A DNA stretch of 64,000 bases, taken from NCBI GenBank assembly GCA_023374045.1, contig CM041776.1, positions 40,864,171-40,928,170 of the forward strand, read 5' to 3'. This document shows, one piece after another, positions 9,637-58,286 of the stretch. A program made the translations under genes and the position numbers. Numbering within the stretch: the first letter of the stretch is position 1; each line of letters opens with the position of its first letter. The notes beneath the pieces were generated by a model. It had not been told where the DNA came from. It did no database searches and saw only the letters and a list, made by a program, of their open reading frames with translations. The stretch is from Limonium bicolor. Its lineage: Eukaryota; Streptophyta; Magnoliopsida; Caryophyllales; Plumbaginaceae.

Positions 9637-10195
9637 TAGCCGTTTCGGTTATGTGTGTACGACGTGTATTTGAATACATCGTCTATGTTATGTTGTTATG
9701 TTACAGACCGTTGTGTCTGAATGATGTGGATAATGTTGTATGGACCTTGTGTCCAATGTTATGTTATGTTGTATGGACCTGGAGTCCAATGTTATGTAAG
9801 TGTGTTGTTAGTAATGTATGGAAGTATTGTTTATAAGTATTCCCGTGTGCTAATATTTAGGATATGTGGAAGTATGAACTTTGAGGACAAAGTTCTTTTA
9901 AGGGGGGTAGATTGAAATACCCCAAACCTTAATATATTGTTTAAACACTTAAATATGGTGTATTAAGACTAAAAAGAGTCTTAGAAACATTAGTAAACAA
10001 ATTTAAACAAAAGGAAACACAAAATGTGCTTTAAAGTCAATAAGAGCCAAAATGTGCTCTAAGCTTGGGATAAACTTGGTTAAGACCTAATGAACTTACC
10101 AAGACCTCATTTATACACTAATGAACATATTTAATCAATTACCAAAGAAAACCAAGCTTGAAAACAAGTTTAAACACAAAATGTGCTTTAAGGAG
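9637..10195 (+). mobile_element. Inverted fragment of element B (3' untranslated end plus first 284 bp of LTR)
   Basis: This 559-bp piece runs on the plus strand, opposite to B. It contains the sequence before B's 3' LTR, the polypurine tract AAGGGGGGTAGAT, and the start of the same LTR (TGAAATACCCC at about 9911). It matches the reverse complement of about 13862-14415. It ends at GGAG inside the loop of the LTR-start hairpin, where the outer end of B's 3' LTR (TGTAACACC) is joined directly. Its left end joins H1 sequence at about 9636. Confidence 0.85.
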
Positions 10196-11506
10196 TGTAA
10201 CACCCCTAATACGCACATGATACTAAATGAAATCGCAGCGGAATTAAATGACTAAACAGTAACTAACGCTTCGGTGCTACAACGCCGTCAACCACCCACG
10301 TGGTTGACAAGGCAGAATAAATACAAGTGTACCGGTCTGATGATCAGACTCCCGAGCATAAAACTAAACCATAATTACATCATATACAATACCGAGTGTT
10401 TACATACATCCTTCACTGTATAATATCACTGTATACGCAACAACCAAAAGTATATAACGCCACAGGAGCACAGGCGCATCCCGGGCCAACATCCAAAGTA
10501 TACAAAAGTAATTACATCCTAGGATCTAAAGCCACTCCGCTTCTTCGATCCTCATCCTGCAGTATAAGAAATATGGATCCCCCGAGGGGGTCAGCAACCC
10601 TTGGCTGGTATGGCTAACGCGCAGCCCATCGGCTACCGGGATACGCGCAGCTACTTGTCATTATAACATGGCATTCAATTATATACATAACATAACATAA
10701 CATGGAGCATGGCATCAATGGTGCATAGCTCATCATCACATACACGGTGGATCTTCGTTCCACAATAACAAACCACAAGGGTCAAATAACATAAGAGCCT
10801 AGAGAGTGATTCACCCTCATGTTAAGCTCGTTAAACACACTCATTACCGTTCTGTTAGACGAACGAGTAACTTAAGTCACAGATGGTTTGGATTTAGTGA
10901 CCCGAACACACCACACAAACACAGGTTCCCACTAAACCGATCATAAGTCAGAATAGGTAAGCTTTGGAAGAAGCTAGCGGGAGATCGAACGCCAAATTAA
11001 GGTGAACAATCTTAACAACATAAGAGTCGAATCTGATTCAGATATCTACTCTTAACTTACATGCATGACCGGACAACCGGATTCCTCACTTCCCAGTTAA
11101 CACTTGTTAGAAGTTCATAGTGGAACTTAACAACCATCACACAACAGGTGGTAAGTCATGTTAGACACACACAAGGGAAAATGAGTCACAACAACACATC
11201 ACAATAATATGAACAACTGTAAACTCATTACATGTTTAAATCTTATAACGTTGTAAACACACAGAAAACATACAACACACAAACCGGTGTAAACCGCTAG
11301 ACAATAGACTGCAAGAAAACCATACCTTGGTCCTTGCCTCGTTTCGTTTCCACCTTGAGAGAATCCTAAACACATTAGTAATGTCGGTTAATTAACGCAC
11401 TAATCCATTATTAACATTATCTACTCAACATTACTAGTTTACTTTTATTTTACACTTGTTACATCTTTTCATCCTTTTAATTGCCTACAAAACCCACCTA
11501 ACATGT

Positions 11507-11514
11507 CTTATATA
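11507..11514 (-). promoter_or_regulatory. Candidate TATA box, B 3' LTR
   Basis: TATATAAG on the minus strand, about 90 bp downstream (element sense) of the hairpin array. The same box is at 21859-21866 in the 5' LTR, where it could start the element's transcript. Confidence 0.45.
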
Positions 11515-11600
11515 ACCTTATTATATCATTACTAACCAACTACTATTTTTAGATAACAATTCCCATCTTAAAACAACAATTTTTGGTCCATACAGTGGCC

Positions 11601-11922
11601 TGTCCGAACTTGTGTCCGAGCTTCCAAGTTCGGACACAAGCCGTGATTTTTGACAGAAAACAGACACATGTCCGAACTTATGTCCGGACTTCGGAAGTTC
11701 GGACATGAGTCGAGGAAAATCCTAACCAGAAGTCCATACGTCCGAACATGTGTCCGGACTTCCCAAGTTCGGACACAGTTCGAGGATAATCCCTAAGAAA
11801 TAACAGGTGCGTCCGAACTTCCAAATTCGGACGGTAGTTCGGACACTACCTAAAATCCAGAAAACTGTAAGCGTAACAGGGCATGTCCGAGCTTCCAAGT
11901 TCGGACGGAAGTTCGGACGTGC
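11601..11922. repeat. Mid-LTR hairpin array of B (3' LTR copy), five units
   Basis: Units near 11601, 11668, 11740, 11808 and 11883. The arm motif is GTCCGAACTT with its complement AAGTTCGGAC. Reading the plus strand, the first three units run arm, second forward copy, reversed arm; the last two run forward, reversed, reversed. The array is repeated at 21951-22270. Confidence 0.9.
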
Positions 11923-14145
11923 CATTATACTCAATTTCTAAGCCTTTAAACACTTAACCAAATTCCTCCAAAGCCTCCTAATGCTTCCTAACAACCTTTG
12001 GTACCCTTATATCCACATACAACATTCATGAAACTCATTTTCTAATTCCTTAAACCTTTACTTATTTCTTCACAAAATTCCTAACACTTACAACATTTTA
12101 CACTAGGTTTATAAATGGTGTTTCTCACCCATGATAACTACTATCCCAAAATGTTTTCTCCTTATCTTAACATCATCTCCCAAGCATCATCTCTCACACT
12201 AATTCCTTATATCCTTCTTGAAACTCTTTTCCTAGTGTACACTTTCTCCTTAATTTACCAAAGTTTGCCTAAGTATTTGCCTAAGTCCAAAATGGCTTTG
12301 GTATTACTAAAATCTCAAGCTCATGCCTAAGTCCTTGTTACATCCTAAATCACCTTAATGCATGTTTCCTACACAAGAACAACACTTAACCATTTTAAAT
12401 ACTCCTTAACTTATCAAACTCATTTTAACACCTAGAACTTCACATTTGTTACCCAAATTTTGGCATAGGTTCTCCTAGAACATTACTAAACCAAAACACA
12501 TTGTTTTTACCAACAAACAACCAAGAACACTAAAAATCCATCAAGTACTTATTATACACAAACTTCACTCACAAGGCACTACATCACAATATAGTGCACA
12601 ATTTAAATTGCATGGCACTTAGGCCCTTAAATGACATGGCTCTTAGGCCCTTAAAATGCACAAATCATAAACACTGAATTTCCACAATATATTTGCCTTT
12701 AACCTGCAAATACACTCAACAACACATATGCCTTTTACTAAGCTCTTGGGAACACTTTACTAAGTCATTCACCATTGGCTCTTTAGGTAGTTTTAATAAG
12801 CATTTATAAGCTCATTTCTCCTAAGGCATTAAAACAACATTAGGTTAGTAGATTACCTCTTTTGCAAAATAACTTCTTTCTTGTTTCCTTTAGAAAACCG
12901 ATAGAGTACTTGATTCTTTGACAAGTTCTAAACAATATACAAACATTATAATGAGTATTCAAGCTATAAGCTTCATCTCATTGTAAACCCTAGTTTTACA
13001 TTGTTTCAAAAACATTAATGTAGTTGTTTTACCTTGCTCTTTGAAGAGAGTTTGAATATCTAGCAAGAGAGGACTCCACCTAGTCCATGAAGGGTTGGAA
13101 TGAAGCTAGAACAAAGTCACATAAAAAGCTCCTTCAATGTGTATTTTCGGACATGACAAAAACAAGGAGGAAATGAAGTTTTTATTTGAGATTCCTTACC
13201 TAGAAGTCAAGGAGAGTAACAATATGTAAAAATACAAGCTCAAGCTCCTTCAATGGAGGAACTCCATGGCACCGAAATGGTTGTCTTGGACTTTTGAAAA
13301 GATAGGAATGAAGAGCTTGATGAGAGGAAGAAGATGGTGATGTTTGTTTTTGATTTGGACAAGTGAGCAAGGTTTTACAAGAGATCAAAGTGGGAGTTTC
13401 AATGGGGGTGTGTGTATTACCGTGAGAGAACAGCAAGAAGAAGGAAGAAGAGAGGTGGGAAACCGTGTGAGCAAGGAAAGAAAATGAGAGAATGAAGATT
13501 GGTTTAACTTTAGAAGATATTTGTAGTTTAAAAGCAAATAGTACATTCTTAGTCATCATTATTTACTTAACAAATTACAAGAGGGTGGTGAGTCACCAAA
13601 CCTTAGAAAACCGGCCCCCTAAATATATGAGGGTAATATAGTCTTTGTTTGTCAATTTAATTACTTATACAAACATATGTTACAAAATAGCTTATAAAAG
13701 TTACTATTCATAAAACAAGGCACATAGAAGTGAATTTTTGATTTCCCACTAATATAGACACCCAAATGTGATATTATATAGTACACATATATATTTAAGA
13801 GTAATGATGGACATCTAGCCACTCAAACTCATTTACAAGACAATTTTCAAAAATGTGCTTTAAGACTCCTTAAAGCACATTTGTGTTTAAACTTGTTTTC
13901 AAGCTTGGTTTTCTTGGTAATTGATTAATATGTTCATTAGTGTATAAATGAGGTCTTGGTAAGTTCATTAGGTCTTAACCAAGTTTATCCCAAGCTTATA
14001 GCACATTTTGGCTCTTATTGACTTTAAAGCACATTTTGTGTTTCCTTTTGTTTAAATTTGTTTACTAATGTTTCTAAGACTCTTTTTAGTCTTAATACAC
14101 CATATTTAAGTGTTTAAACAATATATTAAGGTTTGGGGTATTTCA

Positions 14146-14160
14146 ATCTACCCCCCTTAA
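14146..14160 (-). promoter_or_regulatory. Polypurine tract of B
   Basis: TAAGGGGGGTAGAT on the minus strand, directly before the 3' LTR start. Identical in core to those of J, K and L. Confidence 0.85.
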
Positions 14161-14460
14161 AAGAACTTTGTCCTCAAAGTTCATACTTCCACATATCCTA
14201 AATATAGCACACGGGAATACTTATAAACAATACTTCCATACATTACTAACACACTTACATAACATTGGACTCCAGGTCCATACAACATAACATAACATTG
14301 GACACAAGGTCCATACAACATTATCCACATCATTCAGACACAACGGTCTGTAACATAACACAACACATAGACGATGTATTCAAATACACGTCGTACACAA
14401 TAACCGAAACGGCTCTACCCCCTTAAAAAGGGGTACGCCCCGTACCCTATCACATAAGTA
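14161..14460 (-). other. B 3' untranslated spacer
   Basis: About 300 bp between the pol stop codon and the polypurine tract. It holds short direct repeats around ATGTTATG and TCCAATGT. No coding signal. The inverted fragment at 9637-9910 is a second copy. Confidence 0.7.
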
Positions 14461-14706
14461 CTAAGAAGTAAACAATGACGGGTACTTCGCCTTCATCTTG
14501 TCTTCCAGCTCCCAAGTGGCCTCCTCCACGTTCTGGTTAGACCAAAGAACTTTCACCAGTCTCACGGACTTATGGCGAGTGTCTCGAGTCTTAGCATCCA
14601 GAATCCGTACCGGAGTCTCCACTGATCGCATGGTCGGCTCTAAGGTTAGCCTTTCAGGCTGAAGCACATGAGACGGATGAGACATATACTTCTTCAACTG
14701 GGACAC
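14461..14706 (-). pseudogene. pol: B pol: chromodomain-like C-terminal tail
   Basis: An 81-codon open stretch ends the polyprotein. It starts in the integrase tail (SQLKKYMSHPSHVL) and ends with a chromodomain-like segment, VLWSNQNVEEATWELED, then KAKYPSLF and a stop. This W-x(8)-TWE pattern is typical of the degenerate chromodomain of Tekay/Del integrases, thought to tether integration to marked heterochromatin. That fits the nested insertions in this window. It is out of frame with the preceding integrase segment by an indel near 14700. Element L has a near relative of this tail at 58287-58550. Confidence 0.85.
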
Positions 14707-15927
14707 ATGAAATAATCATGTACCTTGCCCAGTTCGGCGGGTAGGTCTAGTCTATAGGCTACCGGGCCGATCCGCTCCGTCACAACATAAGGCCCCCATA
14801 CTTTGGGCTCAACTTGCCTTCTGGCCAAACGAAATACTCCCTTCATGGGGACACTCTCAAAAATACCTGATCGCCCACGGCGACTCCAGGTCACGTCGGC
14901 GCACATCTGCGTACGACTTCTGTCTATCCTGAGCTGCTTTCATATTAGCCCTGATCTGAACTTCTGCTGAACTTGCTCAAGATACTCTGGTCCTATAATG
15001 ACCGTCTCACTCGATTCATCCCAGCATAATGGCGTGCGGCATGGTCTACCGACAAGGCCTGGAAGGGAGACATCTTGATCGAAGCATGATAACTGTGTGT
15101 TGTAACTAAACTCGATCAGATGTAACTTATCAATCCAGCTGGTCTGGAAGTCCAGTGCACAAGCACGTAGCATATCCTCCAAGTGTCTGAATAGTGCACT
15201 CACTCTGACCATCGGTCTGTGGATGAAACGCTGTACTCAATTTCAATTCAGTACCCAATGCCTCTCGTGTGGACTTCCAATATCTGGATAAGAATCTGGT
15301 ATCTCTGTCAGATACATCGTTTTTGGTACACCATGATGTCTTACAATCTCTTTATCAAACAGTTCTGCCAATCTTGCCACTTTCCAAGTGTCCTTCATCG
15401 GAATGAAATCGGGCCACCTTGGTCAGTCGGTCAACTATCACCCATATCATATTCAGACCTCCCCTTGTAGGCGGAAGCCCCTACTACAAAGTCCATGGAG
15501 ATATCATGGAACTTCCACTCAGGCACTGGCATTGGCTGTACCATACCACCAGGCCGTCGGTGCTCAAACTTGACCTTCTGGCAAGTGAGACACCTCAACA
15601 CGTAATCAACTAACATCTTTCTTCATTCCAGTCCACCAAAAATACCTCTTCATACTCTTATACATCTTTGAAGCTCCGGGGTGAATCGAGTAGTAGAACA
15701 ATGGGATTCACTCAGATGCGCTCCTTCAACTCAGCGCTACTCCTAGGTATACACCAATCGGCCATTCAGCCTACTCAGGTCATCATCGTGGAGTCTGAAG
15801 TCGTACTTCTGACCCTCGAATGTGCCTCAAGCTTCTGCCGGATCTCCAGCATGTACTGATCCGTCATCTGAGCACTCCGCACCTCTTCAACCAAGCCAGT
15901 ATGAGAGACTAGCGAATGGAGAGAGTG
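14694..15927 (-). pseudogene. pol: B pol: integrase (frameshifted)
   Basis: Integrase inserts the cDNA into host DNA. Visible pieces in order: the zinc-binding region (HPGASKMYKSMKRYFWWTG near 15630-15690, then CLTC at about 15581-15592), the first catalytic aspartate in ISMDFVVG near 15490, the PQTDGQSE block with the catalytic glutamate near 15190-15215, then [17 protein letters not shown] and the GPYVVTERIGPVAYRL segment of the C-terminal domain. These lie in at least three frames, so several indels have broken the gene. The L element encodes a close homologue at 58550-58940. Confidence 0.85.
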
Positions 15928-16290
15928 TGCTCGGCGACTCAGTGTGTCAGCTACCACATTTGCCTTACCCTCTTTGTATTGCAGGTTAATATCGTAGTCA
16001 TTCAGAAACTCAACCCACCTTCTTTGCCTCATGTTCAACTCTTTCTGAGTGAACAAGTACTTTAAGCTTTATGATCAGAATAATTGTCACACTTACCCCA
16101 TACAAATAATGTCGCCATATCTTCAATGCGAACAATGGCACCCAATTCTAAGTCGTGGGTAGGGTAGTTCTCCTCATGCTTCTTCAGCTGACGGGAGGCG
16201 TATGCTACGACCTTCCCGTGTTGCATCAACACACAACCCATACCCCTGCCTGATGCGTCGCAGTAGACCTCAAACCATCTGGATCGTCTG
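15928..16290 (-). pseudogene. pol: B pol: RNase H (frameshifted)
   Basis: RNase H degrades the RNA strand during reverse transcription. The start is marked by [16 protein letters not shown] with the first catalytic aspartate at about 16257-16259; a second acidic residue lies in HDLELGA near 16147. A frameshift follows near 16060-16130, in the segment that normally leads to a TDHKSL-like motif (SDHKA here). The domain resumes with [17 protein letters not shown] and closes at [10 protein letters not shown] near 15930. All hallmark blocks are present but not in one frame. Confidence 0.9.
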
Positions 16291-17195
16291 GTATAGTCAG
16301 GACTGGTGCAGATGTCAGAGCATCCTGAGACTCGCAAAGAACTCTCACAGTCAACTGTCCACTCGAATGGTGCATCCTTCTTCATTAAGGAAGTCATCGG
16401 CTCGAGATACTGGAGAAGTCCTTCACAAACCTCCTATAATATCCTGCCAGACCGAGGAAGCTCCTGATATCAGTGACTGTCTTCTGCCTGGGCCAGGTGC
16501 GCACTGCATCTATCTTTGCCGGATCAACAGCGATCCCGGCCTCAGAAATCACATGTCCAAGGAAAGTACTTGGTTCAACCAAAATTCACATTTCGAAAAT
16601 TTTGCATACAACTGGTTTCTCCTCAGAGTTTGTAACACATCTCTCAGGTGGCTTTCGTGCTCACCTCTAGATTTAGAATACCAAGATGTCATCGATGAAG
16701 ACTACCACTGACTTGTCCAACTGATCTTGGAAAAACGGTTCATTAAGTCCATGAACTTAGCTGGTGCATTCGATAAGCCAAACGGCATAACTGTGAACTC
16801 ATATGCCCATACCTCGTTCTGAAAGCTGTTTCGATATCACTGTCACGGATGGCAATCTGATGGTATCCGGAACGTAAGTCTATCTTGGAGAATACTGATG
16901 CACCCCTCAGCTGATCAAATAGATCGTCGATGCGTGGTAAAGGGTAACGGTTTTTCACCGTAACAGCATTCAGCTCCCGATAATCAATACACAGGCGGAG
17001 GCTACCGTCCTTCTTCTTCACGAAGAGGACCGGCGCTCCCCATGGTGAAACACTAGGGCGGATAAAGCCCTTGTCGAGTAGGTCTCTCAGCTGCTCCTTG
17101 AGCTCTGTCATCTCTGCTGGAGCCATACGATAAGGTGCTTTCGCAATGGGTCCAGTGCCCGGAACTAAGTCGATCTCAAACTCAAACCTCTCGTG
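16291..17195 (-). pseudogene. pol: B pol: reverse transcriptase (frameshifted)
   Basis: Copies the element RNA into DNA. Conserved blocks in order: [55 protein letters not shown] and [12 protein letters not shown] in one long frame (17231-16743). After an indel near 16810, the palm segment carries the active-site box FIDD at 16688-16699. After another, the thumb/connection blocks [15 protein letters not shown] and [12 protein letters not shown] follow. The YRMAP, FIDD and YYRRF blocks are standard for Ty3/Gypsy chromoviruses. At least three indels make this copy non-functional. Confidence 0.93.
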
Positions 17196-17812
17196 CTGGC
17201 GGCATGCCCGGCAGTTCCTTAGGAAATACATCAGGAAACTCCGACACTACCGGCACATCTGGGCTAAACTCAGGGTCTCTCTCTATGTCCTGGACATAGC
17301 AGAGGTATACATCACTCCCTCGTCGTAACTCACGATACATGGCCATGGCGGTGATGATCTGTGTCGAAGGCTCCCTGGGCCTCTGGCGGTATGATATGGT
17401 AACCCCAGATGGACTCCGAAGAAGCAGTCGATGCTCGGCACACAGGATTCTGCCCTTGTACCGCTCCAACCAGTTCATCCCGACAATCACATCAAATCCA
17501 AGTCCGTCGAACTCTATCAGGTCGATCGGGAACTCTTCACCTCTGATTCGTACAATGACATCTCGGTGGTAGCGGGTACATCTGATCCGCTCTTTCGATG
17601 GGAGAGTGACCAAGAAGTCTGGCATCTCCTCTCCATCTAACCCCAGCCTCTTCGCAAAAGATAGCGAAACAAATGTGTGTGAGGCTCCAGAGTCGAACAA
17701 GATCGATGCATCCACGCCATTCACTGGAAAGGTACCGGTGAGGATTGTGCCGCTCTTGCCGGCTTCTGCCTCATTGCAGACACTCATGTACCTCCCGTTC
17801 CGAGTGCACAGC
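17182..17812 (-). pseudogene. pol: B pol: aspartic protease
   Basis: Retropepsin-type protease that would cut the Gag and Pol polyproteins. The active site DSGASHTF lies at about 17671-17694, followed by the flap region and the FDVIVGMNWL motif typical of plant Gypsy proteases. The domain is open for 201 codons from an ATG at 17787, then loses frame near 17190, just before the RT. Codons upstream of that ATG stay open back to a candidate splice acceptor at 17813, so the true start of this segment may be an exon boundary and not the ATG. The AlkB stop codon lies 184 bp upstream. Confidence 0.92.
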
Positions 17813-17990
17813 CTAATTCATTGGCAAACTAATAAGTACTGGGTAACAACACGGTTGATATACTTCAATAACTCCACTTTATTCATTAACACTTCCTCTT
17901 TACAACATTGTTGGTTTACATGGTTGATATAACTTAACACATACATAACTCCCTTAACATATACTGGCTTAACACATTACAAAAGTATAC
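17813..17990 (-). other. Candidate intron 4 between AlkB and protease
   Basis: A 178-bp AT-rich segment that begins GTATAC and ends ATTAG on the minus strand. Removing it puts the AlkB stop codon (17996-17998) and the protease in one reading frame, with only two codons plus one split codon between the stop and the new exon's first full codon. No other function is visible. Splicing is inferred from sequence only. Confidence 0.4.
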
Positions 17991-17995
17991 AAGGC

Positions 17996-18752
17996 TTAGA
18001 ATTGTCTGAAGGTCAAATTCAAACGTCCGGGTTTCATGTGTGTGGCATTGATCACTGCCGACGGTGCGGTATTCAGTTTGATCTTTCTGATGCCGTGATA
18101 TAGCATCCTTGACTGCCCACCCATGATTAGTACATCTCCTGACTTTAACATTAACTTCCTTGCGAGATCAGCACGCTTCTGCTCGCCATACACAAATACT
18201 GCGGTATCACCAATGGACCAAGACACCACGGGTACTCCCTTACTTAGAGACTCGGGTGACTCGTCCTTATCTTGGTGTAAACCTAACCGTCCACCTTTCT
18301 GGTAGAAGTTCACAATACACAAATCTGCTTCACATTTGGAATTGAATCCGTTTCAACTTGTTGAGCAATTCCCACGGCGTGATTAACGACCGCACGGAAC
18401 TCCTCTGGTATACTTGGTACCGTTGCTCCATCTTCAGCTCGCACTTCTTGATATGACTTGGTGTAAGGGTTCCAGTCCTTACCCATGCACATCATCTTCA
18501 ATTGCATTCTTGATCCGTTCGGATATTCAGGTGTGTAGAAACCTCCAGGTTTAGCTCCAAGTTCGTCGCATCGTCTGATGATATGGACTTGTGCTTCCGG
18601 TGTCAGGTATCCACTTAAGAGTATCATACCTGGCTGGATAACCTGACATTGCTCCATTGGAAAGTCGGTGATGTTGATGGTGGTCTCTTCAGGGTTTGGT
18701 GTGGGTGGGATTGGATAACATATATTGAAGGTTCCTTTCAGTTTAGAATTAT
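17996..18752 (-). pseudogene. ALKBH1-like 2-oxoglutarate/Fe(II) dioxygenase domain captured by element B
   Basis: AlkB enzymes oxidatively remove methyl groups from DNA or RNA bases using iron, oxygen and 2-oxoglutarate. About 250 residues are visible. The N-terminal half (18752 to about 18340) has FNICYP, then PGMILLSGYLTPEAQ, GGFYTPEY and LKMMCMGKDWNP, blocks I recognise from plant ALKBH1-type proteins. After one indel near 18325-18345 the catalytic half follows: CIVNFYQKGGRLGLHQDKDE with iron ligands H at 18275-18277 and D at 18269-18271, then SIGDTAVFVYG, SGDVLIMGG, the distal histidine in MLYHG at 18095-18097, and RLNLTFRQF with both arginines (18023-18025, 18005-18007) just before the stop. 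It lies in the same orientation as gag and pol, between zinc knuckles and protease, where Tekay elements normally have nothing. The single frameshift makes this copy inactive; the identity of the domain is very secure. Confidence 0.95.
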
Positions 18753-18881
18753 CTAATTAGGTGTCTTTCACACTATACTTTAACTCCTTACTCACATGAT
18801 AATACACTTGAACTCACTAATACACACAAGCATGAAATGCGGTATGCAATCACTTATTACATTCAACAGTTTAGGCGGTAC
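18753..18881 (-). other. Candidate intron 3 between gag and AlkB
   Basis: 129-bp AT/GT-rich segment that starts GTACCG and ends AATTAG on the minus strand. It contains stops in the flanking frame. Removing it joins gag codons ending ...SSRP to the AlkB exon in frame through a split codon (G|AT). Inferred, not proven. Confidence 0.45.
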
Positions 18882-19221
18882 CTGGTCTAGAAGAGGGCCC
18901 TGGCGCCTCAGACCGGTCCACCACATTCAGGGTGGCCTTGCTAGGTCCCGACCCTTCCCCTTCTGGGAATCAGTATGCCTCTGATCAGTGGGTGGCTGGT
19001 TAGCCGTCTTCGGGCCATCAATAGCTGCTGTGGCCTTACCCTTCCACTGCCCCTTGGGCTTGTTGACTCTGCTGTTGGGGTTCCGGTAACACTCGTGGTC
19101 ACGGTGACCCCACTTCTCGCAGTATCGACACTGCACCTCATTCCCTTGCAGTCCTTGCCGGGGTGGTCTCCATTGCACCACTTACAGTAATAGTGGCGCT
19201 CCGGTCCAGAGCCCGTGCTAG
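18882..19221 (-). pseudogene. gag: B gag block 3: two zinc knuckles and linker
   Basis: The nucleocapsid-like part of Gag, which would bind the element RNA. Two zinc knuckles are visible: C-K-W-C-N-G-D-H-P-G-K-D-C near 19151-19190 (CX2CX3HX4C) and C-R-Y-C-E-K-W-G-H-R-D-H-E-C near 19090-19131 (the usual CX2CX4HX4C). A one-base indel separates them and another follows the second knuckle. A lysine-, proline- and glycine-rich linker runs to ...SSRP, where the candidate donor for intron 3 lies. The AlkB exon follows, so a spliced product would place the dioxygenase behind an RNA-binding module. Confidence 0.85.
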
Positions 19222-19302
19222 CTGCTAACACAATACACACTCAGTACTTGTTTCACAACTTATCAACATACACATCAACTTATTACAATGATTAAAAATT
19301 AC
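19222..19302 (-). other. Candidate intron 2 in gag
   Basis: 81-bp AT-rich segment, GTAATT to TAGCAG on the minus strand, with in-frame stops. Removal joins PPK and ASTGSGPERHYYCKWC in one frame. Confidence 0.45.
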
Positions 19303-19564
19303 CCTTTGGTGGGTAAGAGCGTAGGGGCTTCGCCGCATAAGCATATGTGAGCTTCAGTGGCTCCTCAGCTGTGGTGGTTTGGGCTTGGCCCTTGTCACCC
19401 TGGTGCTGACTCTTCTGGGGCTGGGGATAAGGTTTCTTCTTCTTCTTTCCTCCCCCGTACCCCTGCGAACTCTGGCCCTCGCTCGTGGCCTTGCGCTTGT
19501 GCGCATTCTCCTCGTCCCTCAGACGGACGGTGATCTCCACCTTAGCAGCGGCATGATAGCACTC
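19303..19564 (-). pseudogene. gag: B gag block 2 (basic linker)
   Basis: An 87-codon open block that continues Gag after block 1: ECYHAAAKVEITVRLRDEEN, a KKKKK run, then a glutamine/proline-rich tract ending SYPPKG. It follows the capsid-like region and precedes the zinc knuckles, as the basic linker does in other plant Gypsy Gags. No catalytic motif. Confidence 0.75.
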
Positions 19565-19669
19565 CTGTATTTAGGATGATCAGTCATGCCCCGCAATACA
19601 TACTCACAAACTCACATTAATACTCACTTGTAGACTATACATATTCACATCACTCTTTACTTAAATTAC
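19565..19669 (-). other. Candidate intron 1 in gag
   Basis: 105-bp AT/GT-rich segment, GTAATTTAAG to ATACAG on the minus strand, containing stops. Removal joins ...EYTTLQ to ECYHAA at phase 0, giving a natural continuous Gag helix region. Confidence 0.5.
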
Positions 19670-20340
19670 CTGCAAGGTAGTATACTCAGCTGGCCCCATC
19701 CCATAGCGAAGACGGTGGCTGAGACCGTTGTAGAAACGGTTTACCAGCACCCGGTTCGAGTATCCCAGGTCCGGTAACAGGTGGACAAGGCCGGTGAAGG
19801 CGTGTATACTCATCAACCGTCACCTTGTCCCCTGCCTCAGACTATCCAGCTCCAGGCGCTTGGCCTCTTGAACGTGCACGGGGTAGTATTTGGCTCGCAG
19901 CAGAGCCGTGTACTCCCTCCACCAAACTGAGGATCCGCCATCCGGTCCTCTCTCACTAGCTTCCACCAGTTTTGTGCCGAACCCTTCAGGTAGTAAGCGG
20001 CAAGACGGACCTTAGCCTCTGCGGGCACAGCCAAGGTCTCGTAGGCGGTCTCCAACTCGGAGATGTACGCCTCCAACTTACGTGGGTCGGTCTCCCCATG
20101 AAATGAAGGGGGTCTCAGATCTGCCAATGCCTTGACCCAGTTGGTCTCTCGTGGCGGTGGCGGTGGTGGCTGAACTCCGGGCATCTGCCCCTGCTGGATC
20201 GCAGCTACAAGCTGGGGTACCATCTGGGCCACAGCGGCTGCTACAGCCTCAGCCATAACCTGAGCCGTAGTGTTCTCGCCCTGGTCACCCCCAGTACCAG
20301 TACCACTTCCGCGGCCTCTACCGCGTGGTCTACCTGACAT
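19670..20340 (-). pseudogene. gag: B gag block 1: N-terminus and capsid-like domain (frameshifted)
   Basis: Gag forms the virus-like particle. It starts with ATG at 20340 and an arginine/glycine-rich leader (SGRPRGRGRGSG), then an alanine-rich helix, a proline run and the capsid-like core: LADLRPPSFHGETDPRKLEA, then AAYYLKGSAQNWWKL. The frame is lost near 19924; the next frame has EYTALLRAKYYPVHVQEAKR, and further indels near 19830 and 19800 precede RVLVNRFYNGLSHRLRYGM. This order (WW, then F.RLKQG-like and RF..GL blocks) is normal for plant Gypsy Gag. At least three indels inactivate it. Confidence 0.9.
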
Positions 20341-20540
20341 CTGTATTCACATGAGTATTCATTAGCAATATGCTTACACACTTATCGGTCCAACGATCGT
20401 AAACGATTCCCGAAATAAGGTATTTCCACACTTAGTTAGTGGTTAACCTTTCCATAACTGATCACTTAGGTAACTGTAGTTAGGTTTCCTAACTCGGTAT
20501 ATTCCTAAGCTCGGTATTCTAGTCATCAGAGCGATACTTC
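20341..20540 (-). other. B 5' leader
   Basis: About 200 bp between primer site and gag. It contains two copies of a TACCGAG...TAGGAA motif (near 20485-20520) shared with J, K and M just downstream of their primer sites, a candidate packaging or dimerisation region. Confidence 0.5.
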
Positions 20541-20552
20541 GCTCTGATACCA
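20541..20552 (-). promoter_or_regulatory. Primer binding site of B (tRNA-iMet) in a hairpin
   Basis: TGGTATCAGAGC on the minus strand, five bases inside the 5' LTR. It overlaps a perfect inverted repeat, ATCAGAGCGA/TCGCTCTGAT, at about 20525-20548. Confidence 0.9.
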
Positions 20553-21858
20553 CTTTTTGTAACACCCCTAATACGCACATGATACTAAATGAAATCGCAG
20601 CGGAATAAATACTAAACAGTAACTAACGCTTCGGTGCTACAACGCCGTCAACCACCCACGTGGTTGACAAGGCAGAATAAATACAATTGTACCGGTCTGA
20701 TGATCAGACTCCCGAGCATAAAACTAAACCATAAATACATTATATACAATACCGAGTGTTTACATACATCCTTCACTGTATATCACTGTAACTGCAACAA
20801 CCAAAAGTATATAACGCCACAGGAGCACAGGCGCATCCCGGGCCAACATCCAAAAGTATACAAAAGTAATTACATCCTAGGATCTAAAGCCACTCCGCTT
20901 CTTCGATCCTCATCCTGCAGTATAAGAAATATGGATCCCCCGAGGGGGTCAGCAACCCTTGGCTGGTATGGCTAACGCGCAGCCCATCGGCTACCGGGAT
21001 ACGCGCAGCTACTTGTCATTATAACATGGCATTCATTATATACATAACATAACATAACATGGAGCATGGCATCAATGGTGCATAGCTCATCACACACATA
21101 CACGTGGATTTCGTTCCACATAACAAACCACAAGGGTCAAATAACATAAGAGCCTAGAGAGTGATTCACCTCATGTCAAGCTCGTTAAACACACTCATTA
21201 CCGTTCTGTTAGACGAACGAGTAACTTAAGTCACAGATGGTTCGGATTTAGTGACCCGAACACACCACACAAACACAGGTTCCCACTAAACCGATCATAA
21301 GTCAGAATAGGTAAGCTTTGGAAGAAGCTAGCGGGAGATCGAACGCCAAATTAAGGAACAATCTTAACAACATAAGAGTCGAATCTGATTCAGATATCTA
21401 CTCTTAACTTACATGCATGACCGGACAACCGGATTCCTCACTTCCCAGTTAACACTTGTTAGAAGTTCATAGTGGAACTTAACAACCATCACACAATAGG
21501 TGGTAAGTCATGTTAGACACACACAAGGGAATTGAGTCACAACATTACATCACAATAATATGAACAACTGTAAACTCATTACATGTTTAAATCTTATAAC
21601 GTTGTAAACACACAGAAAAACATACAACACACAAACCGGTGTAAACCGCTAGACAACAGACTGCAAGAAAACCATACCTTGGTCCTTGCCTCGTTTCGTT
21701 TCCACCTTGAGAGAATCCTAAACACATTAGTAACGTCGGTTAATTAACGCACTAATCCATTATTAACATTATCTACTCAACATTACTAGTTTATTTTTAT
21801 TTTACACTTGTTACATCTTTTCATCCTTTTAATTGCCTTTAAAACCCACCTAACATGT

Positions 21859-21866
21859 CTTATATA
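21859..21866 (-). promoter_or_regulatory. Candidate TATA box for the B transcript
   Basis: TATATAAG on the minus strand, about 85 bp downstream of the hairpin array and about 1.3 kb before the LTR end. Transcription toward gag would start about 30 bp beyond it. Confidence 0.45.
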
Positions 21867-21950
21867 ACCTTATTATATCATTACTAACCAACTACTATTT
21901 TTAGATAACAATTCCCATCTTAAAACAAATTTTTGGTCCATACAGTGGCC

Positions 21951-22270
21951 TGTCCGAACTTGTGTCCGAGCTTCCAAGTTCGGACACAAGCCGTGACTTT
22001 AGACAGAAAACAGACACATGTCCGAACTTGTGTCCGGACTTCGGAAGTTCGGACATGAGTCGAGGAAAATCCTAACCAGAAGTCCATACGTCCGAACATG
22101 TGTCCGGACTTCCCAAGTTCGGACACAGTTCGAGGATAATCCCTAAGAATAACAGGTGCGTCCGAACTTCCAAATTCGGACGGTAGTTCGGACACTACCT
22201 AAAATCCAGAAAACTGTAAGCGTAACAGGGCATGTCCGAGCTTCCAAGTTCGGACGGAAGTTCGGACGTG
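21951..22270. repeat. Mid-LTR hairpin array of B (5' LTR copy), five units
   Basis: Same five units as 11601-11922, with arms GTCCGAACTT and AAGTTCGGAC. Confidence 0.9.
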
Positions 22271-24182
22271 CCATTATACTCAATTTCTAAGCCTTTAAAC
22301 ACTTAACCCAATTCCTCCAAAGCCTCCTAATGCTTCCTAACAACCTTTGGTATCCTTATATCCACATACAACATTCATGAAACTCATTTTCTAATTCCTT
22401 AAACCTTTACTTATTTCTTCACAAAATTCCTAACACTTACAACATTTTACACTAGGTTTCTAAATGGTGTTTCTCACCCATGATAACTACTATCCCAAAA
22501 TGCTTTCTCCTCATCTTAACATCATCTCCCAAGCATTATTCTCACACCAATCCTTATGTCCTCTTGAAGTTCTTTTCCAAGTTACACTTTCTCTTATTTA
22601 CCAAAGTTTGCCTAAGTCTTTACCTAAGTCCCAAAATGACTTTGGTACATACTAAAATCTCAAGCTCATGCCTAAGTCCTTGTTACATCCTAAATCACCT
22701 TAATGCATGTTTCCTACACAAGAACAACACTTAACCATTTTAAATACTCCTTAACTTATCAAACTCATTTTAACACCTAGAACTTCACATTTGTTACCTA
22801 AATTTCATAGGTTCTCCTAGAACATTACTAAACCAAAACACATTGTTTTTACCAACAAACAACCAAGAACACTAAAAATCCATCAAGTACTTATTATACA
22901 CAAACTTCACTCACAAGGCACTACATCACAATATAGTGCACAATTTAAATTGCATGGCACTTAGGCCCTTAAATGACATGGCTCTTAGGCCCTTAAATGC
23001 ACAAATCATAAACACTGAATTTCCACAATATATTTGCCTTTAACCTGCAAATACACTCAACAACACATATGCCTTTTACTAAGCTCTTGGGAACACTTTA
23101 CTAAGTCATTCACCATTGGCTCTTTAGGTAGTTTTAATAAGCATTTATAAGCTCATTTCTCCTAAGGCATTAAAACAACATTAGGTTAGTAGATTTACCT
23201 CTTTTGCAAAATAACTTCTTTCTTGTTTCCTTTAGAAAACCGATAGAGTACTTGATTCTTTGACAAGTTCTAAACAATATACAAACATTATAATGAGTAT
23301 TCAAGCTATAAGCTCCATCTCATTGTAAACCCTAGTTTTACATTGTTTCAAAAACATTAATGTAGTTGTTTTACCTTGCTCTTTGAAGAGAGTTTGAATA
23401 TCTAGCAAGAGAGGACTCCACCTAGTCCATGAAGGTTGGAATGAAGCTAGAACAAAGTCACATAAAAAGCTCCTTCAATGTGTATTTTCGGACATGACAA
23501 AAACAAGGAGGAAATGAAGTTTTTATTTGAGATTCCTTACCTAGAAGTCAAGGAGAGTAACAATATGTAAAAACAAGCTCAAGCTCCTTCAATGGAGAAA
23601 CTCCATGGACCGAAATGGTTGTCTTGGACTTTTGAAAGATAGGAATGAAGAGCTTGATGAGAGGAAGAGATTGGTGGTGTTTGTTTTTGATTTGGACAAG
23701 TGAGCAAGGTTTTACAAGAGATCAAAGTGGGAGTTTCAATGGGTGTGTGTATTACCGTGAGAGAACAGCAGAAGAAGAAGGAAGAAGAGAGGTGGGAAAC
23801 CGTGTGAGCAAGGAAAGAAAATGAGAGAATGAAGATTGGTTTAACTTTAGAAGATATTTGTAGTTTAAAGCAAATAGTACATTCTTAGTCATCATTATTT
23901 ACTTAACAAATTAACAGAGGGTGGTGAGTCACCAAACCTTAGAAAACCGGCCCCAAATAATGAGGGTAATATAGTCTTTGTTTGTCAATTTAATTACTTA
24001 TACAAACATATGTTACAAAATAGCTTATAAAAGTTACTATTCATAAAACAAGGCACATAGAAGTGAAATTTTTGATTTCCCACTAATATAGACACCCAAA
24101 TGTGATATTATATAGTACACATATATTTAAGAGTAATGATGGACATCTAGCCACTCAAAACTCATTTACAAGACAATTTTTC

Positions 24183-24218
24183 AAAAATGTGCTTTAAGAC
24201 TCCTTAAAGCACATTTTT
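24183..24218. repeat. LTR-start hairpin in B 5' LTR
   Basis: Perfect 15-bp arms (AAAAATGTGCTTTAA and TTAAAGCACATTTTT) around a six-base loop, about 261 bp from the LTR start. Related hairpins lie at similar places in H1, J, K, L and M. Confidence 0.85.
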
Positions 24219-24479
24219 GTTTAAACTTGTTTTCAAGCTTGGTTTTCTTTGGTAATTGATTAATATGTTCATTAGTGTATAAATGAGGTCTTGGTAAGTT
24301 CATTAGGTCTTAACCAAGTTTATCCCAAGCTTAGAGCACATTTTGGCTCTTATTGACTTTAAAGCACATTTTGTGTTTCCTTTTGTTTAAATTTGTTTAC
24401 TAATGTTTCTAAGACTCTTTTAGTCTTAATACACCATATTTAAGTGTTTAAACAATATATTAAGGTTTGGGGTATTTCA

Positions 24480-27400
24480 ATGCACCCTCGGACCATTCAG
24501 TTATTTGGTCGAGAGTATGCAATTCGTTCCATACAAATAGTTCAATATTGAAACTGTAAAAACAACAATATATATGCAGTAATCTCAAAAACAAACAAGC
24601 CCCCGGCTTCACACATACATCGTAATAAAACACTGAAAGCGTTTACAGCGCTTATATGAGTACAGAGACTCCATTCCAAAAAAAAATAATTCATAATTGA
24701 GTTCAGCGACTCACTCGACAGACACCCAACCACAATCCACACATGAGTACGGTGACTCGACACCAGTTCACACACACAATATGAGCACAATGGCTCGTTC
24801 AACAAATCCACCAAACATACACCACATAACACAAAGCACAACCAACGAACAACAAGGCGAAGTAACGAGAATTATAAACGAGTATGAACTCTCGTTCTTT
24901 GGCATGCAGCCCAATAATGTTCGCCTAATGTGCGAGGTTAATATAGTCGTTCGTAATTGTTCAGTCATGTCTAATGACACGTCTCGTTAGAACGACGTGT
25001 CTCTAAGTTACCCATCTTATGGCGGGTCCCCCGGCATAGCCACTCCAGCAGTAGAGTCTCCGTCCTACGAACAATCTGTAGTTCGTTGGAAATTTATCCA
25101 GATACTTACAGCTACCACACGGTGTCCTAGTATCGTTAATGGATCACAGGCACAGCAAGAGCCACATCATGATAAACTTATCTATACGATCGCATCGCTT
25201 TACTATCTTTTTTTTTCTAAACAGCAGACCAAGGTGTAGTCCAATCCTGAGTATGCGACTCGGGATCCAGTGCTAGATACAAGAGCGCGTTAAAGAGGCC
25301 AATGTCCGTATAAGTCTCAGATATTTTATATATCTTATTATCCGAAGGCTACAACGTTTTACTTACGTTCCTTATATTACACATATAAGATAGCATCATT
25401 GCCGCTAGTTCGTTTTTATAATATGGTTCATATATACGAACGGTACTGTTATCGCACAACAGTAATAATAAAGCAGCATTATACACAACTCAAGCATATT
25501 AATTCACACAAGCAGACATTCAATTTATCACAGATTTTCACAACAAGTCTGAATGAGGAAATCCTCAGAGACAATCAAGCCACATAAATAACATACCGTT
25601 CACCCTGAAAGTATTCGGTGGAGTATGATCAGCTAGATCCGATGCTCCTCGTGTCGTCTCTAACAATCTATCAATATGCATCACACCATGCATCAGCATC
25701 ATATAACAGTACACTACGGCACCCCGTACCGTTACTAATCCATCCAGTTATTCCCCGTTGTTAGCTATAAACGTCTGTCGGGTTTTCGGTTTAACTCAGG
25801 ATTGGAACAATGTTATATACATGCGTAGTCTTGTCTCGTATATTAATATACTTATTGTTGAACTTTGTTATCGCATGTAACTTAATATCCCTTGTATATC
25901 ATGTAGTTTGTTTCTACATGTATGTATATTCTTAATCATGCATTATACATTTGCCTTAGTATTATTTTCCTAAGGTTTGTTTCCCACATTTAATGGAGTA
26001 TAATTCATGTAACAGTACTTTTGGATTTATAAATCCTCATTTCCATGTACACTCCTAACATTAGACTTCCATATCTAATGTTTGTAATTCCTTTTCCCCT
26101 TTTACCCCGTATATCATTTTAATTATGATATACATGGTTATTAAACCATATTATATTTTCTACTCCATAACATATATTTATTTGTATATATGATTATGGG
26201 ACTTATTTGTTTATATGGAAGTCTTTATAAATATATATTCATTCCTTTTAATGAATACCTCTTATTATAAATGTTATACCTCTTATAACACTTAAAAACC
26301 ATATTATAAATTTCATAAAAAATATTAATATTTCCGAACAGCACCTATGTTCTTAATTATTTACAAAAAATCCACCACATAATTTATACCAATGTTATAT
26401 TATAGTTATATAACATATTTTGACAACTATGTCATTAAGAAATTATAACTTATAGTTATATATTGTTATAAATACCAAACAGCCTTAAAACTCTCGATAT
26501 TAATTAATTCCACCAAACTTCCATAATTTAAACTCAACCCAAATTATATTTCCTTGTTACAACTATAGTATTATACCTTATATTATAATCCTTATTTCTT
26601 ATATAATTATAACCCATGGTTATATTTTCTCAAAATAACCGAACCGACCATGGTCTACTTAAATATTTTCCCCACTTAACTTTCTATATTCACCAATTTC
26701 CCCTCTTTATAAACATATAGTTTCCTTAATTCCATAAAACCATATTTATACATATGTCCTCATAAAACCTTGTATATAATTAAAAAATCGCCACCCAACT
26801 ATACCAAAAGGTTATAAACATTATTCCTAACCTTTTACTTTCTCTCAAATCTCAATTTTAAACATATGTTACCCATTTGTAACAATATTATGAAATACTT
26901 GTATTATACTTATTTAATTATATTACACTCCATTAAACCAAATCCAATTCCTAAAAATTCCTAAAACTTAAGGTTTGTACTAAACTCCTTTTAGTACCCC
27001 AAGTTTTCGAAAATCACAATACCACCCCAAGTATAAATCTTTTACAATTTATAAGTATTATTATAAGGTAGTATTTTAATTTCTTAATTTTCCAAAAACT
27101 TGGTCAAAGTCTCCTATATAGTCAACTTGACTTTAATACCAAATGGGAACCAATTTTTCCGGTAATCACTAATAATAGCCTATACTTTTCTATTTTTACA
27201 ATTTTGACAAAACTTTATAAAATGTCATAATTTTTATTAATTCATTTAAAAAAAAAACCTAAATTGCTCTAAATTAAGCCCACGGCTTTCTAATTTCCTA
27301 GTAATTACGAATTGGCCCCAATTTAATTATAAGCATAAATAAACTAATAGGCTTATAACTTAAATTAAAATGGCCTAATGACATGGCTTATTAAACCTTG

Positions 27401-31320: not shown

Positions 31321-34300
31321 TGAAATACCCCTAACTTAAATACAGGGATTAACATAATTCTAATATGTATTTAAGGGCCTAACAATGCCTAATTAATATT
31401 TGTAAGGAAAATAAATCCAAAGAAATAAAGAAGAAAGAAACGCTTAAAAGGCGAAAAACGCTAAATAAAGCGTTAATAACCATAGGAGGTATGAGACCTC
31501 GGTTAGCGTATTATATGGATTCCAAAGGTTTAATAAGACCTAAATAATATATGGAAACAACTCCCGAAGAAAACGGACCAAATAATGAATTAAAACACTA
31601 ATAGAGCTTTAGAGCGCGTTTTTCGAGAAAACCCGAAAACGTGACTTTAAGTGGTCAAACAGACCCGTAAAAATTTAAATCATTAAATAATAATTATAGG
31701 CATTTATGGAAGTTTGAATAACCAATAAAATAATTAAACAAGAAAATTCCGGAAAACGGGCCAGGTTAGTGAATAGTACCGAAAACGGGTAAAATAACGA
31801 GCGTTTTTCTGTAAAAAGAAAAAACGCTCCAACTAGTAATACTGAGTGGGACCAGATTTTTAATAAGTTAGATAACCCCCTCACACACACATGTAATAGC
31901 TAATTAAGTAAGAGAGCAAAAGAAAGTAAAGTGAAAAAGGTAAAAGTACCTTACATACTCTCACTCTCACTTTTCTTCTCTCTCCCATTCTTCTTCCCCA
32001 CCGTACTCCCTCTCTTTTCCCTTCCTCTGGCTGCGATTTGAGCTCCCCCTCTACAACCATGGAAGCTTCATCTTCTTCTCCTGCCATCTCCATTTGAGCT
32101 TCAATCACAAAAATAAGTACATATTTGGTAATCCCCTCATCCTCCTACATTTCCCTCTTTTCAAAATCGAAAAGGATGAGTTTCATCTCTATGGGTTTCC
32201 CCATTTGAAAGGAAAAGCACACCATGTGGGCTTGGAGTTCCTCTTTCAAAACAAGGTAAACAATCTACATGAAAAAACTCAGGTTTCCACCAACTCCTCT
32301 CATAACCGATTTTTACCACATATGATACCTTGTTTTTCTCTCTCTCTTTTGAGCATAATATCTACCTTGCAATGGTGGTGGATTCACCTTCTTGAACCAA
32401 GGGCTAAAACCCCTCTTAAAAGCTTCAAAAGGTAAACCCTAGAAATTGTGTTTTAACACTTTAAATGGATTAGCACTAATTTAAGGATTAGTATATTAAT
32501 TGTAGTTGTTTTGTGTTCATTGGATGATGGGAATGGAGTTTGGCAACTTCATTCCCCACATGGCCGATTTGGACAAGAAAGAAAGAAGAGGAGAATTGGG
32601 AGAAAGAATGAAGGAATTATAAGCTCAAGGTAAGGACTCTTTACTAATGTTAATTTTTAGTGCATTAGAGTAATGGGAATGGGTAAACCAATCTAAAGAA
32701 CCCAAATAATGTATTAGTAATGTAATTGAGGAAGTATTGATGTGCTAAAATTTTGTATGTGTGCTGGTAGGACCCTTGTATGGGTGTGGCTAGAATAGGA
32801 ATGATTTTGGTGAGAATGTGTATGTGTGGCTAAGTAAGAAAAGTAGATGAACTATGGCAAAATTTTGGTAGGAATATGTGCATTTATGGATGACTTGGTG
32901 AATGGGAGAACCAAGGTATGTATTGAGGATAGTAGAGATGTTTAATGACCATGGAGTAGTGATTATAGTATGAGAATGAAAGAATGTAAAATCTGCAACA
33001 AGAGTGTTGAATGGTATTGGAGGAACTAGGAGAACTTATGTACTTGACCTAGGGAATGAGTGTTGGACTTGAAGAGGTGAGATAATGCATTGTAGGCCTT
33101 GGAGATGGCATTAGGAGAGGAAATTATGTATGGAGGAAGTAGGGGCCAAAATCTGTGGCAAAGAGGTATCAAATTGTTAGAAGAGCTAGGAAAGATTAGT
33201 GTACAAGAATTGGTAAAAAGAATGTTGGACTTGGGTATAGAGGTACAATTGCTTGGGAATGAATTGGCATGGTAAGAGGAGGTGTTTGGGATGCTAGGAG
33301 TGACATTGGTGGAGGAAGTATTGGATGGTAGGAGTTGTAGTAAAATCTGTAGCATTAGAGAATGAAAAACTGTTATAGGTGTTGAGAGGAAGTGAGGAAA
33401 TTGTGTAAATTGGTTGATGGATTTAGTAATGAATATGATGGAGGGACTAAGGTGAATTAGAGGATTTAATTAGTGCTTAAACATGTAGGAAACATGTGGA
33501 AATGAGTAGGAAAAGATTGGGTGTGGATTGAGTAGAGTTTGAAGTTCAAAATGAGCAATTAAAATAAGTACTGGGCTGGACCGACCCTAGGACCGACCCT
33601 AGCAGGTCGGTCGACCCGAAAAATTGCAATCTCGGAAGCTTCTGCATCCGACCGACCCAGGAGACCGACCCTGACTGGGTCGGTCGAGTAGGAATTTTTG
33701 AAGGGAATTGCTTCTGTAACGGACCGACCCAAGGACCGACCCTGGCTGGGTCGGTCGGGTTGGAATTTCTGTAATTGGAGTCTCTGCAGCCGACCGACCC
33801 ATGGGTCCGACCCAGGGGGGTCGGTCGGGTCAAAACTTACAAAAAAAAAAACTAAAAGATTATGATTAGTATATATATATATGTATATGTAACCCACCTA
33901 TACATATGAGCATATATATGTAAGTATACCATTGTTAAACAATGAAAAGTAAGTAAATAAAATGTGAGTATAGGAATGTAAAGACTTAGTAAGTATGAGT
34001 TAGGAAACGTAAGGATAATCGAATTAAATTAATGATAGTTAGATTAATTATTCGATTGTATGTAAATCATAGGATTTGATTTGTGAACACCGGAGGAACG
34101 TTGGGATACAAGTACAACGGTGAAAGGTATGATTTCTTCATGCCCTGTATCCTAATCTGGTTACCCCGATTTGTGTGCTTATTTGACCACCTAATAAGAT
34201 AAATGCATGAATCGGATTATATTGCACTTACTTGTGCTTGTTTACATTGTTCTATATTTGTCTTGAACAATAGTTTGTATAATTCATGAAACATATGAAT

Positions 34301-57789: not shown

Positions 57790-58286
57790 GGAACTTTGCC
57801 CTCAAAGTTGCTCAAGGTTTACGGTTTACTACTTCTACTCCTTTGGCAAGTCAATTTCCACAATACATTCTACTACCACCTTACAAGGTGTTCACAATTC
57901 TTACACTACCAGCATACACAATTCAGATACCATACATCATACTCAGTTCAATTTCCATACACAATACTCAATTCATACACAATACTCCATTCGAATACCA
58001 TACACAATACACTTCACAATGTCATTCGTGTCATATACCGTACAACACAATGCATTACTCATTACACACATACCATACTCATTGTACTACATACTGAATG
58101 CTACTAGCACTGCTTTGTGCCAATAAATACAATTAGCACTACATGTGCCAACAAAATACAATTACCATACATACATACTATGCAATGCTAACCCGAAGCA
58201 ATGCAAAAGCAAAAAGGCTCTACCCCCCTTAAAAGGGGTACGCCCCATACCCTTCGTACTATACGGATACTAGACATCTAGTCTAC
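57790..58286 (-). other. L 3' untranslated spacer
   Basis: About 500 bp between the pol end and the polypurine tract. Simple ATAC-rich repeats; the plus-strand open frames at 57796-58107 are low-complexity and not genes. Confidence 0.6.

Follow-up and report, generated by a model that had tools for sequence, protein, structure and literature searches.

A chromodomain Ty3/gypsy retrotransposon lineage of Limonium bicolor with an ALKBH1-type AlkB domain between the Gag zinc knuckles and the protease

Element B, an LTR retrotransposon on the minus strand of a 64,000-nucleotide stretch of the Limonium bicolor genome (the window), belongs to the chromodomain-bearing Ty3/gypsy elements and carries an AlkB domain of the ALKBH1 type between the zinc knuckles of Gag and the protease. 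Two strongly diverged families have the same gene order. The domain derives from a host gene as a processed copy, has conserved iron ligands and is under purifying selection. All things considered, we regard it as fairly probable that a chromodomain Ty3/gypsy lineage maintains an intron-free ALKBH1 copy under purifying selection in thousands of copies, joins the AlkB to Gag by predicted alternative splicing and likely uses it on its own RNA or cDNA.

Element B is bordered by a 5′ LTR of 3922 bp (20558..24479, with the ends TGAAATACC...GTGTTACA) and a 3′ LTR of 3950 bp (10196..14145), both with TG..CA termini; these and all following features of the element lie on the minus strand. The primer binding site TGGTATCAGAGC (20541..20552), which we take to be of the tRNA-Met type, is located five bases inside the 5′ LTR end, and the polypurine tract region AAGGGGGGTAGAT (14146..14165) adjoins the 3′ LTR. 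The N-terminal open stretch of gag (19837..20346), broken further on, gave a weak match to the Ty3 capsid below the cut-off (E 1.4e-4). Next come the predicted intron 1 within gag (19222..19302, GT...AG, phase 1), a zinc-knuckle exon (18882..19221, CKWC..., CRYC...) that is broken in the window copy, and the predicted intron 2a (18735..18881) with the phase-1 donor CCAG/GTACC and acceptor GAAAG/GAACC. The AlkB terminal exon (17996..18734) has its own stop and, in the window copy, one frameshift. It is followed by the predicted intron 2b (17813..17995), the 3′ part of a larger, potentially AlkB-skipping intron; its acceptor AATTAG/GCTGTG is in phase 1 wherever a copy has the usual pol frame. 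The pol exon starts with the protease (RVP_2, 17182..17812, Pfam E 2.2e-28), continues with Pfam-detected fragments of reverse transcriptase (16743..17246) and RNase H (16062..16397) and ends with a chromodomain (14461..14706, Pfam E 4.6e-5, 23.7 bits at a cut-off of 25.1). LTRs, primer binding site, polypurine tract, gag-protease-reverse transcriptase-RNase H and a chromodomain 1.4 bits under the Pfam cut-off identify element B as a Ty3/gypsy chromovirus, presumably of the Tekay/Del clade. The LTR pair differs by 61 substitutions against 36 indels. With the substitution rate of 1.3e-8 for LTR dating, their K2P distance of 0.0158 would place the insertion at about 0.6 million years ago.

Past the 3′ LTR (9638-10196), an inverted piece of the element's own 3′ internal end is joined to the first ~283 bp of the LTR (98% identity), a junction as in aberrant or auto-integration. 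The unit consisting of element B and this inverted piece (9638-24481) interrupts another element, a homolog of which is present at 48228-48936. A related chromovirus fragment at 58212-62296 has a 78% identical chromodomain and a similar inverted LTR junction; no AlkB match was found in this fragment. Two direct repeats of 4.2 kb with 97% identity (31321-35476 and 41087-45247) are likely the LTRs of another element.

An AlkB domain of the ALKBH1 type, located between zinc knuckles and protease on the same strand and including N-terminal FNICYP and LKMMCMGK blocks, had been proposed by the sequence-only reading, and both position and type are confirmed. Two CCHC knuckles were read by eye upstream of AlkB, and Pfam detects the protease RVP_2, reverse transcriptase, RNase H and the chromodomain downstream of it. 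Each half of the domain has a minus-strand match to Pfam 2OG-FeII_Oxy_2 (PF13532), at 18310-18741 with E 1.1e-8 and at 17996-18322 with E 2.8e-34, and the iron-binding HxD (HQD, 18269..18277) and the distal H codon (18095-18097) are at the positions given. The FNICYP and LKMMCMGK blocks are present in the window AlkB, the C-terminus of which reads RLNLTFRQF directly before the stop at 17998-17996. Rice OsALKBH1 (5xeg) is the best solved relative of both halves (E 3.8e-27 and E 3.7e-38). Given these E-values and the number of copies, the match is not a matter of chance. In the predicted fold of the public relative P0002 (pLDDT 94.8), similarity is highest to OsALKBH1 (TM 0.92), followed by E. 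coli AlkB (0.81-0.83), and reaches only 0.57 for ALKBH5. With PF13532, the HxD...H ligands and OsALKBH1 as best solved match, the element AlkB is of the plant ALKBH1 type and not of the ALKBH5 type. Both knuckles and AlkB are frameshifted in the window copy. Its single AlkB frameshift, located between 18310 and 18352, is absent from all other 41 aligned rows and may be assembly noise.

In the 2.92 Gb source assembly, an AlkB core 26-mer was found at 4,821 places with at most one mismatch, while its reversed control was found at none. A search with the C-terminal piece of AlkB resulted in 39,763 loose candidates, 150 of which were scored, all with 98-100% identity; 41 of these copies were cut out as the AlkB-picked sample of the window's own family, group 1. 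In 18 of the first 21 distinct copies, the alignment from the knuckles into pol covers at least 2,460 of 2,521 bp; of the remaining three, L001 is truncated by a contig end, L014 lacks the 3′ end and L019 the 5′ part. AlkB was also present in 20 of 20 stretches picked by their protease (taken from 150 protease matches), and at the expected distance from all nine protease matches on C1:0-64 Mb, including the window copy (eight by exact pattern, one by a match to the AlkB C-piece). A coconut ALKBH1 query (139 places scored of 46,892 loose candidates, 30 loci cut out) revealed a strongly diverged second family, group 2, with a protease downstream of AlkB in 30/30 loci and knuckles upstream in 29/30 (the exception being L062). 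The identity of group 2 to the window AlkB is 45-52% in the N piece and 67-72% in the C piece, and to the window protease mostly 51-58%, with lower values in L067 and part of L073. Synonymous sites have reached saturation between group 1 (L005) and group 2 (pS 0.87), with pN at 0.27. The position of AlkB between knuckles and protease is the standard design of the element family and not a one-off. The other copies with AlkB at the same place that the sequence-only reading called for thus exist, and their absence, which it would have taken as refutation, is contradicted by the thousands of core matches and the recurring arrangement. A late one-off insertion of AlkB is ruled out by its same place in the AlkB-, coconut-ALKBH1- and protease-picked samples.

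AlkB is under purifying selection in both families, comparable to the protease. The neutral N:S ratio, about 2.5:1 for AlkB and about 2.45:1 in the group 2 comparison, was taken from the copies' own singleton spectrum. In the 42 rows of group 1, the N-half of AlkB, which was unused in picking, has N28:S30 (p 1.5e-4), next to N9:S24 in the knuckles and N37:S57 in protease-reverse transcriptase. The corresponding values of N3:S34 for the C-half and of 0.076 for the group 1 pairwise ratio are biased low because this sample was picked by the AlkB C-half, and weight was therefore put on the N-half and on the protease-picked sample. There, AlkB has N24:S43 (p 1e-9, with 7 variants unresolved), and each half is significant on its own (N-half 17:20, C-half 7:23). 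Variants shared among copies of group 2 (N:S of 94:150 in AlkB, 83:144 in protease-reverse transcriptase and 55:100 in the knuckles) all fall below the neutral ratio, and 190 pairs of 20 intact copies have a median dN of 0.055, dS of 0.38 and dN/dS of 0.14. The comparison of dN/dS across copies, suggested earlier from the sequence, accordingly indicates constraint. Neutral decay in all copies together with the boundaries of a one-off late insertion, the other outcome that would have counted against the idea, is at odds with this selection and with the existence of two families, and a neutral passenger AlkB was rejected on N:S and dN/dS.

Among 49 copies picked as intact, HxD and the distal H are kept in all 49 and N-x-Y in 48 (29/29 in group 1, 19/20 in group 2). 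The RxNxTxR motif in 49/49 is not counted as evidence since its core had served to pick these copies and its conservation is partly by construction. Intact AlkB frames had also been looked for and were found, in 1/20 protease-picked copies versus 30/40 scorable rows of the AlkB-picked sample. Much of the breakage in the protease-picked sample may be due to assembly indels, and real decay is possible. As the duplicated host gene region described below and the LTR pair are rich in indels, short frameshifts, including that of the window copy, are unreliable as a sign of decay, whereas the substitution tests are reliable. One AlkB frameshift is common to four related group 1 copies (L022, L023, L024 and L025), suggesting that mobilisation may still occur in copies whose AlkB is broken.

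The proposed capture of a host gene is borne out by the structure of the ALKBH1 gene of the host, which is located at C3:0.70 Mb and C3:133.83 Mb. It contains introns at PEQ/VKII and GLHQ/DRDES and an N-terminal block that is missing from the element AlkB; intact element copies read through both intron positions and end at the host stop. Being devoid of both introns, the element AlkB is a processed copy. The host introns, the host N-terminal block and the separate location of the host gene also rule out that a host ALKBH1 gene simply lies beside a retrotransposon in the window. The two host regions (L081 and L082), near-identical and 133 Mb apart on C3, differ by 40 mismatches versus 102 gap openings in 8.7 kb and represent either an assembly duplicate or a noisy recent duplication.

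In a tree of 32 proteins, including the element AlkBs, the plant's own ALKBH1 and the public sequences P0001-P0004, P0018 and P0019, the host ALKBH1 falls within the clade of sampled flowering-plant ALKBH1 proteins (100/100), where its group comprises those of Impatiens, Artemisia and legumes (87/89). The element AlkBs and the public sequences named fall outside this clade. The best tree nests the host clade within the element AlkB set; with p 0.33 for monophyly of that set, these sequences would neither show nor reject the element AlkBs as one clade, and the tree does not date the capture. A clade of the plant's own element copies and own host gene was rejected in a tree test that is not a fair one, as the public element relatives had been kept out of that clade. 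Among 120 listed of 158 protease matches, only P0108, P0109 and P0188 exceed 60% identity, the next one reaching 38%. The protease P0109 is located on a contig of 23,054 bases and the AlkB P0019 on a contig of equal size, as are the protease P0188 (26,621 bases) and the AlkB P0002, so that equal-sized contigs pair two of the six nearest public AlkB relatives with two of the three nearest proteases. No protease partner for P0001, P0003, P0004 or P0018 was found among the 120 listed of 158 matches, and no AlkB partner for the best protease P0108 (contig of 13,509 bases). The equal sizes are an indication, though no proof, that in other genomes AlkB sits on the same contigs as the protease; such genomes therefore probably carry the lineage. 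The viral contigs scanned contained no relatives.

Knuckles, AlkB and protease are encoded in separate reading frames with stops and two intron-like stretches between them. In open-frame copies, the knuckle frame ends with ...SSRPGTA and a stop, and is followed by the AlkB frame and by a pol frame that begins upstream of the protease. These stops rule out a direct knuckle-AlkB fusion in one frame. The fusion behind the knuckles envisaged by the sequence-only reading therefore does not exist in the DNA itself and would come about only via predicted splicing, for which conserved in-phase sites are present. In both families, one phase-1 donor after the knuckles is accompanied by two phase-1 acceptors, one before AlkB and one before pol. 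In the covered rows, of 42 in group 1, the knuckle donor is GT in 41/41, the AlkB acceptor AG in 41/41 and the pol acceptor AG in 40/41; intron 1 has GT in 38/38 and AG in 39/39. This conservation says little because the group 1 copies are too alike, and their donor CCAG/GTACC is not a strong consensus. Group 2 has the same three sites in the same phase with different intron sequences (donor GT in 29/29, AlkB acceptor AG in 30/30 and pol acceptor AG in 28/29 rows covered), 24 of the 29 donors reading CGGTAAGCC. Indels shared among group 2 copies are concentrated in the predicted introns, with 10 in 230 bp against 0 in 1,712 bp of predicted exons (p 7e-10). The contrast in group 1 is weak (gag1 2, knuckles 2, AlkB 1, protease-reverse transcriptase 3, introns 4). 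Predicted in-phase GT-AG introns are conserved across diverged copies, as in spliced LTR retrotransposons. The predicted gag intron before the knuckles, read from sequence and uncounted across group 2, is common to both groups. An extra GT-AG intron-like stretch in gag of the group 2 copy L059 (about 640-730) is seemingly absent from group 1. The hexamer AGGTAC flanks the AlkB stretch on either side in group 1; the phase-1 splice sites shared with group 2 account better for these borders than an insertion with target duplication would.

We infer that either of the two phase-1 3′ splice sites is joined to the single phase-1 5′ splice site that follows the knuckles. Use of the AlkB acceptor would produce a Gag-knuckle-AlkB protein with its C-terminus at the former host stop, use of the pol acceptor would skip AlkB and produce Gag-Pol, and the unspliced RNA would serve as the genome. 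More speculatively, Gag-AlkB might enter the particle together with the RNA and remove methyl groups, i.e. m1A/m3C-type blocks, m6A or 6mA on single-stranded cDNA, that could otherwise bring reverse transcription to a halt or flag the nucleic acid as a target of silencing. Since single-stranded cDNA, RNA:DNA hybrid and methylated RNA are all possible in reverse transcription, a Gag-tethered enzyme would be expected to meet its substrates. In its most specific form, the model states that an alternative 3′ exon joined to the one post-knuckle donor yields either Gag-Pol or Gag-AlkB, and that Gag-AlkB brings a demethylase into the particle, where the removal of methyl adducts from template RNA, nascent cDNA or primer tRNA lets reverse transcription proceed unhindered. 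We consider this version less likely than not, though by no means remote.

Several other explanations have to be weighed against it. AlkB might be translated on its own, starting at MEQC... (internal ATG at 18657) or from a subgenomic RNA, the intron-like stretches being mere spacers. This in-frame ATG lies ~26 codons past the AlkB acceptor, and an AlkB-bearing orchid element uses a separate ORF2 (PMC9289625), yet a homologous F-x-I-C block sits upstream of the ATG, in frame in both families. As same-phase splice-site pairs are also kept in two diverged families and the shared indels of group 2 are confined to the predicted introns, we consider separate translation unlikely. The enzyme might also act on the host instead of the element, demethylating host RNA or 6mA at R-loops and thereby relaxing silencing. 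In rice, ALKBH1 promotes gene expression and acts as an eraser of 6mA on single-stranded DNA and at R-loops (PMC10469495), whereas the predicted fusion to the RNA-binding part of Gag would favour the element's own RNA or cDNA as target; action on the host seems to us rather doubtful.

It is very improbable that AlkB is a passenger without a role, a piece of a host gene caught once and amplified by hitch-hiking. The frameshifted window copy, the frameshifted subfamily of four related copies and the 19 of 20 broken frames among protease-picked copies would fit such an origin, but long-term purifying selection comparable to that on the protease (dS 0.38 within group 2, saturated synonymous sites between the groups) and an HxD and distal H without exception in intact copies do not, and the substitution ratios largely refute it. 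A normal host ALKBH1 with a retrotransposon nearby, or an assembly chimera, can be dismissed with near certainty, as the host gene lies elsewhere with its introns and N-terminal block and the arrangement recurs in every sample.

The sequence-only reading knew of no AlkB as a standard domain of Ty3/Gypsy elements, but the category as such is not new: Gypsy_Pa_2799 elements of Phalaenopsis, Ogre-like gypsy elements published in 2022, carry an ALKBH5-type 2-ODD/AlkB that removes m6A in vitro, and in 121 plant genomes screened, 2-ODD occurred only in two Phalaenopsis species, in Ogre-related elements (PMC9289625). Gypsy_Pa_2799 and element B are alike in being plant Ty3/gypsy elements with a captured AlkB-family domain, many copies and conserved ligands. 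The orchid element is 25.5 kb long, is sister to Ogre within Tat and encodes an AlkB of the ALKBH5/9B/10B type in a separate ORF2 of 565 aa. In contrast, element B has an AlkB of the ALKBH1 type (nearest to OsALKBH1 and E. coli AlkB) between knuckles and protease, a chromodomain and predicted alternative introns, and does not belong to the orchid 2-ODD gypsy group defined by ALKBH5 type, separate ORF and Ogre/Tat affiliation. The own ALKBH1 of the plant carrying it groups with eudicots. Apart from the orchid case, no other AlkB-bearing LTR element was found in the literature searched, and no mention of AlkB in the searched passages of PMC11963269 and PMC6338049.

Splicing has precedents in plant elements. 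Ogre contains a spliced intron between GAG-PROT and RT (PMC6317226), and Ogre and EVADE are named as intron-bearing plant elements in a review (PMC12786077). Ogre and element B are both plant gypsy elements in which the whole polyprotein requires splicing (predicted in element B); in element B, by contrast, the skipped stretch would hold a terminal AlkB exon, located between knuckles and protease, and further introns are predicted in gag. In the Ty1/copia elements EVADE and BARE1, alternative splicing separates Gag-only from Gag-Pol (PMC12786077). Splicing in these two removes the protease and ends Gag, whereas the predicted alternative 3′ exon of element B would instead extend Gag by an enzyme.

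AlkB domains of plant RNA viruses are located within the replicase proteins, whereas that of element B lies beside Gag and is of the plant ALKBH1 type; both are carried by parasites. Retrotransposons of dinoflagellates and charophytes have reportedly captured cytosine methyltransferases. Those enzymes, likewise element-encoded, are writers of DNA cytosine methylation, whereas element B encodes an eraser-type enzyme in a flowering plant. For the viral AlkB of Alphaflexiviridae, Betaflexiviridae and Closteroviridae, maintenance of the RNA genome has been proposed, as cited in PMC9289625.

In comparison with the orchid case, the AlkB class, the element lineage, the position of the domain and the predicted splice switch are new here. 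Element B appears to be the second case in which a plant retroelement independently captured an AlkB eraser, here with another enzyme class and a predicted Gag-coupling switch. E. coli AlkB is used before reverse transcription in sequencing and removes methylations on the base-pairing face (PMC9072684); element B may exploit the same principle. Taken with the orchid case, our findings suggest that elements face a real barrier in the methylation of their RNA or cDNA and repeatedly evolve to remove it. As one genome contains thousands of young copies as well as a diverged sister family, this barrier becomes testable with respect to the mark, the nucleic acid and the step concerned.
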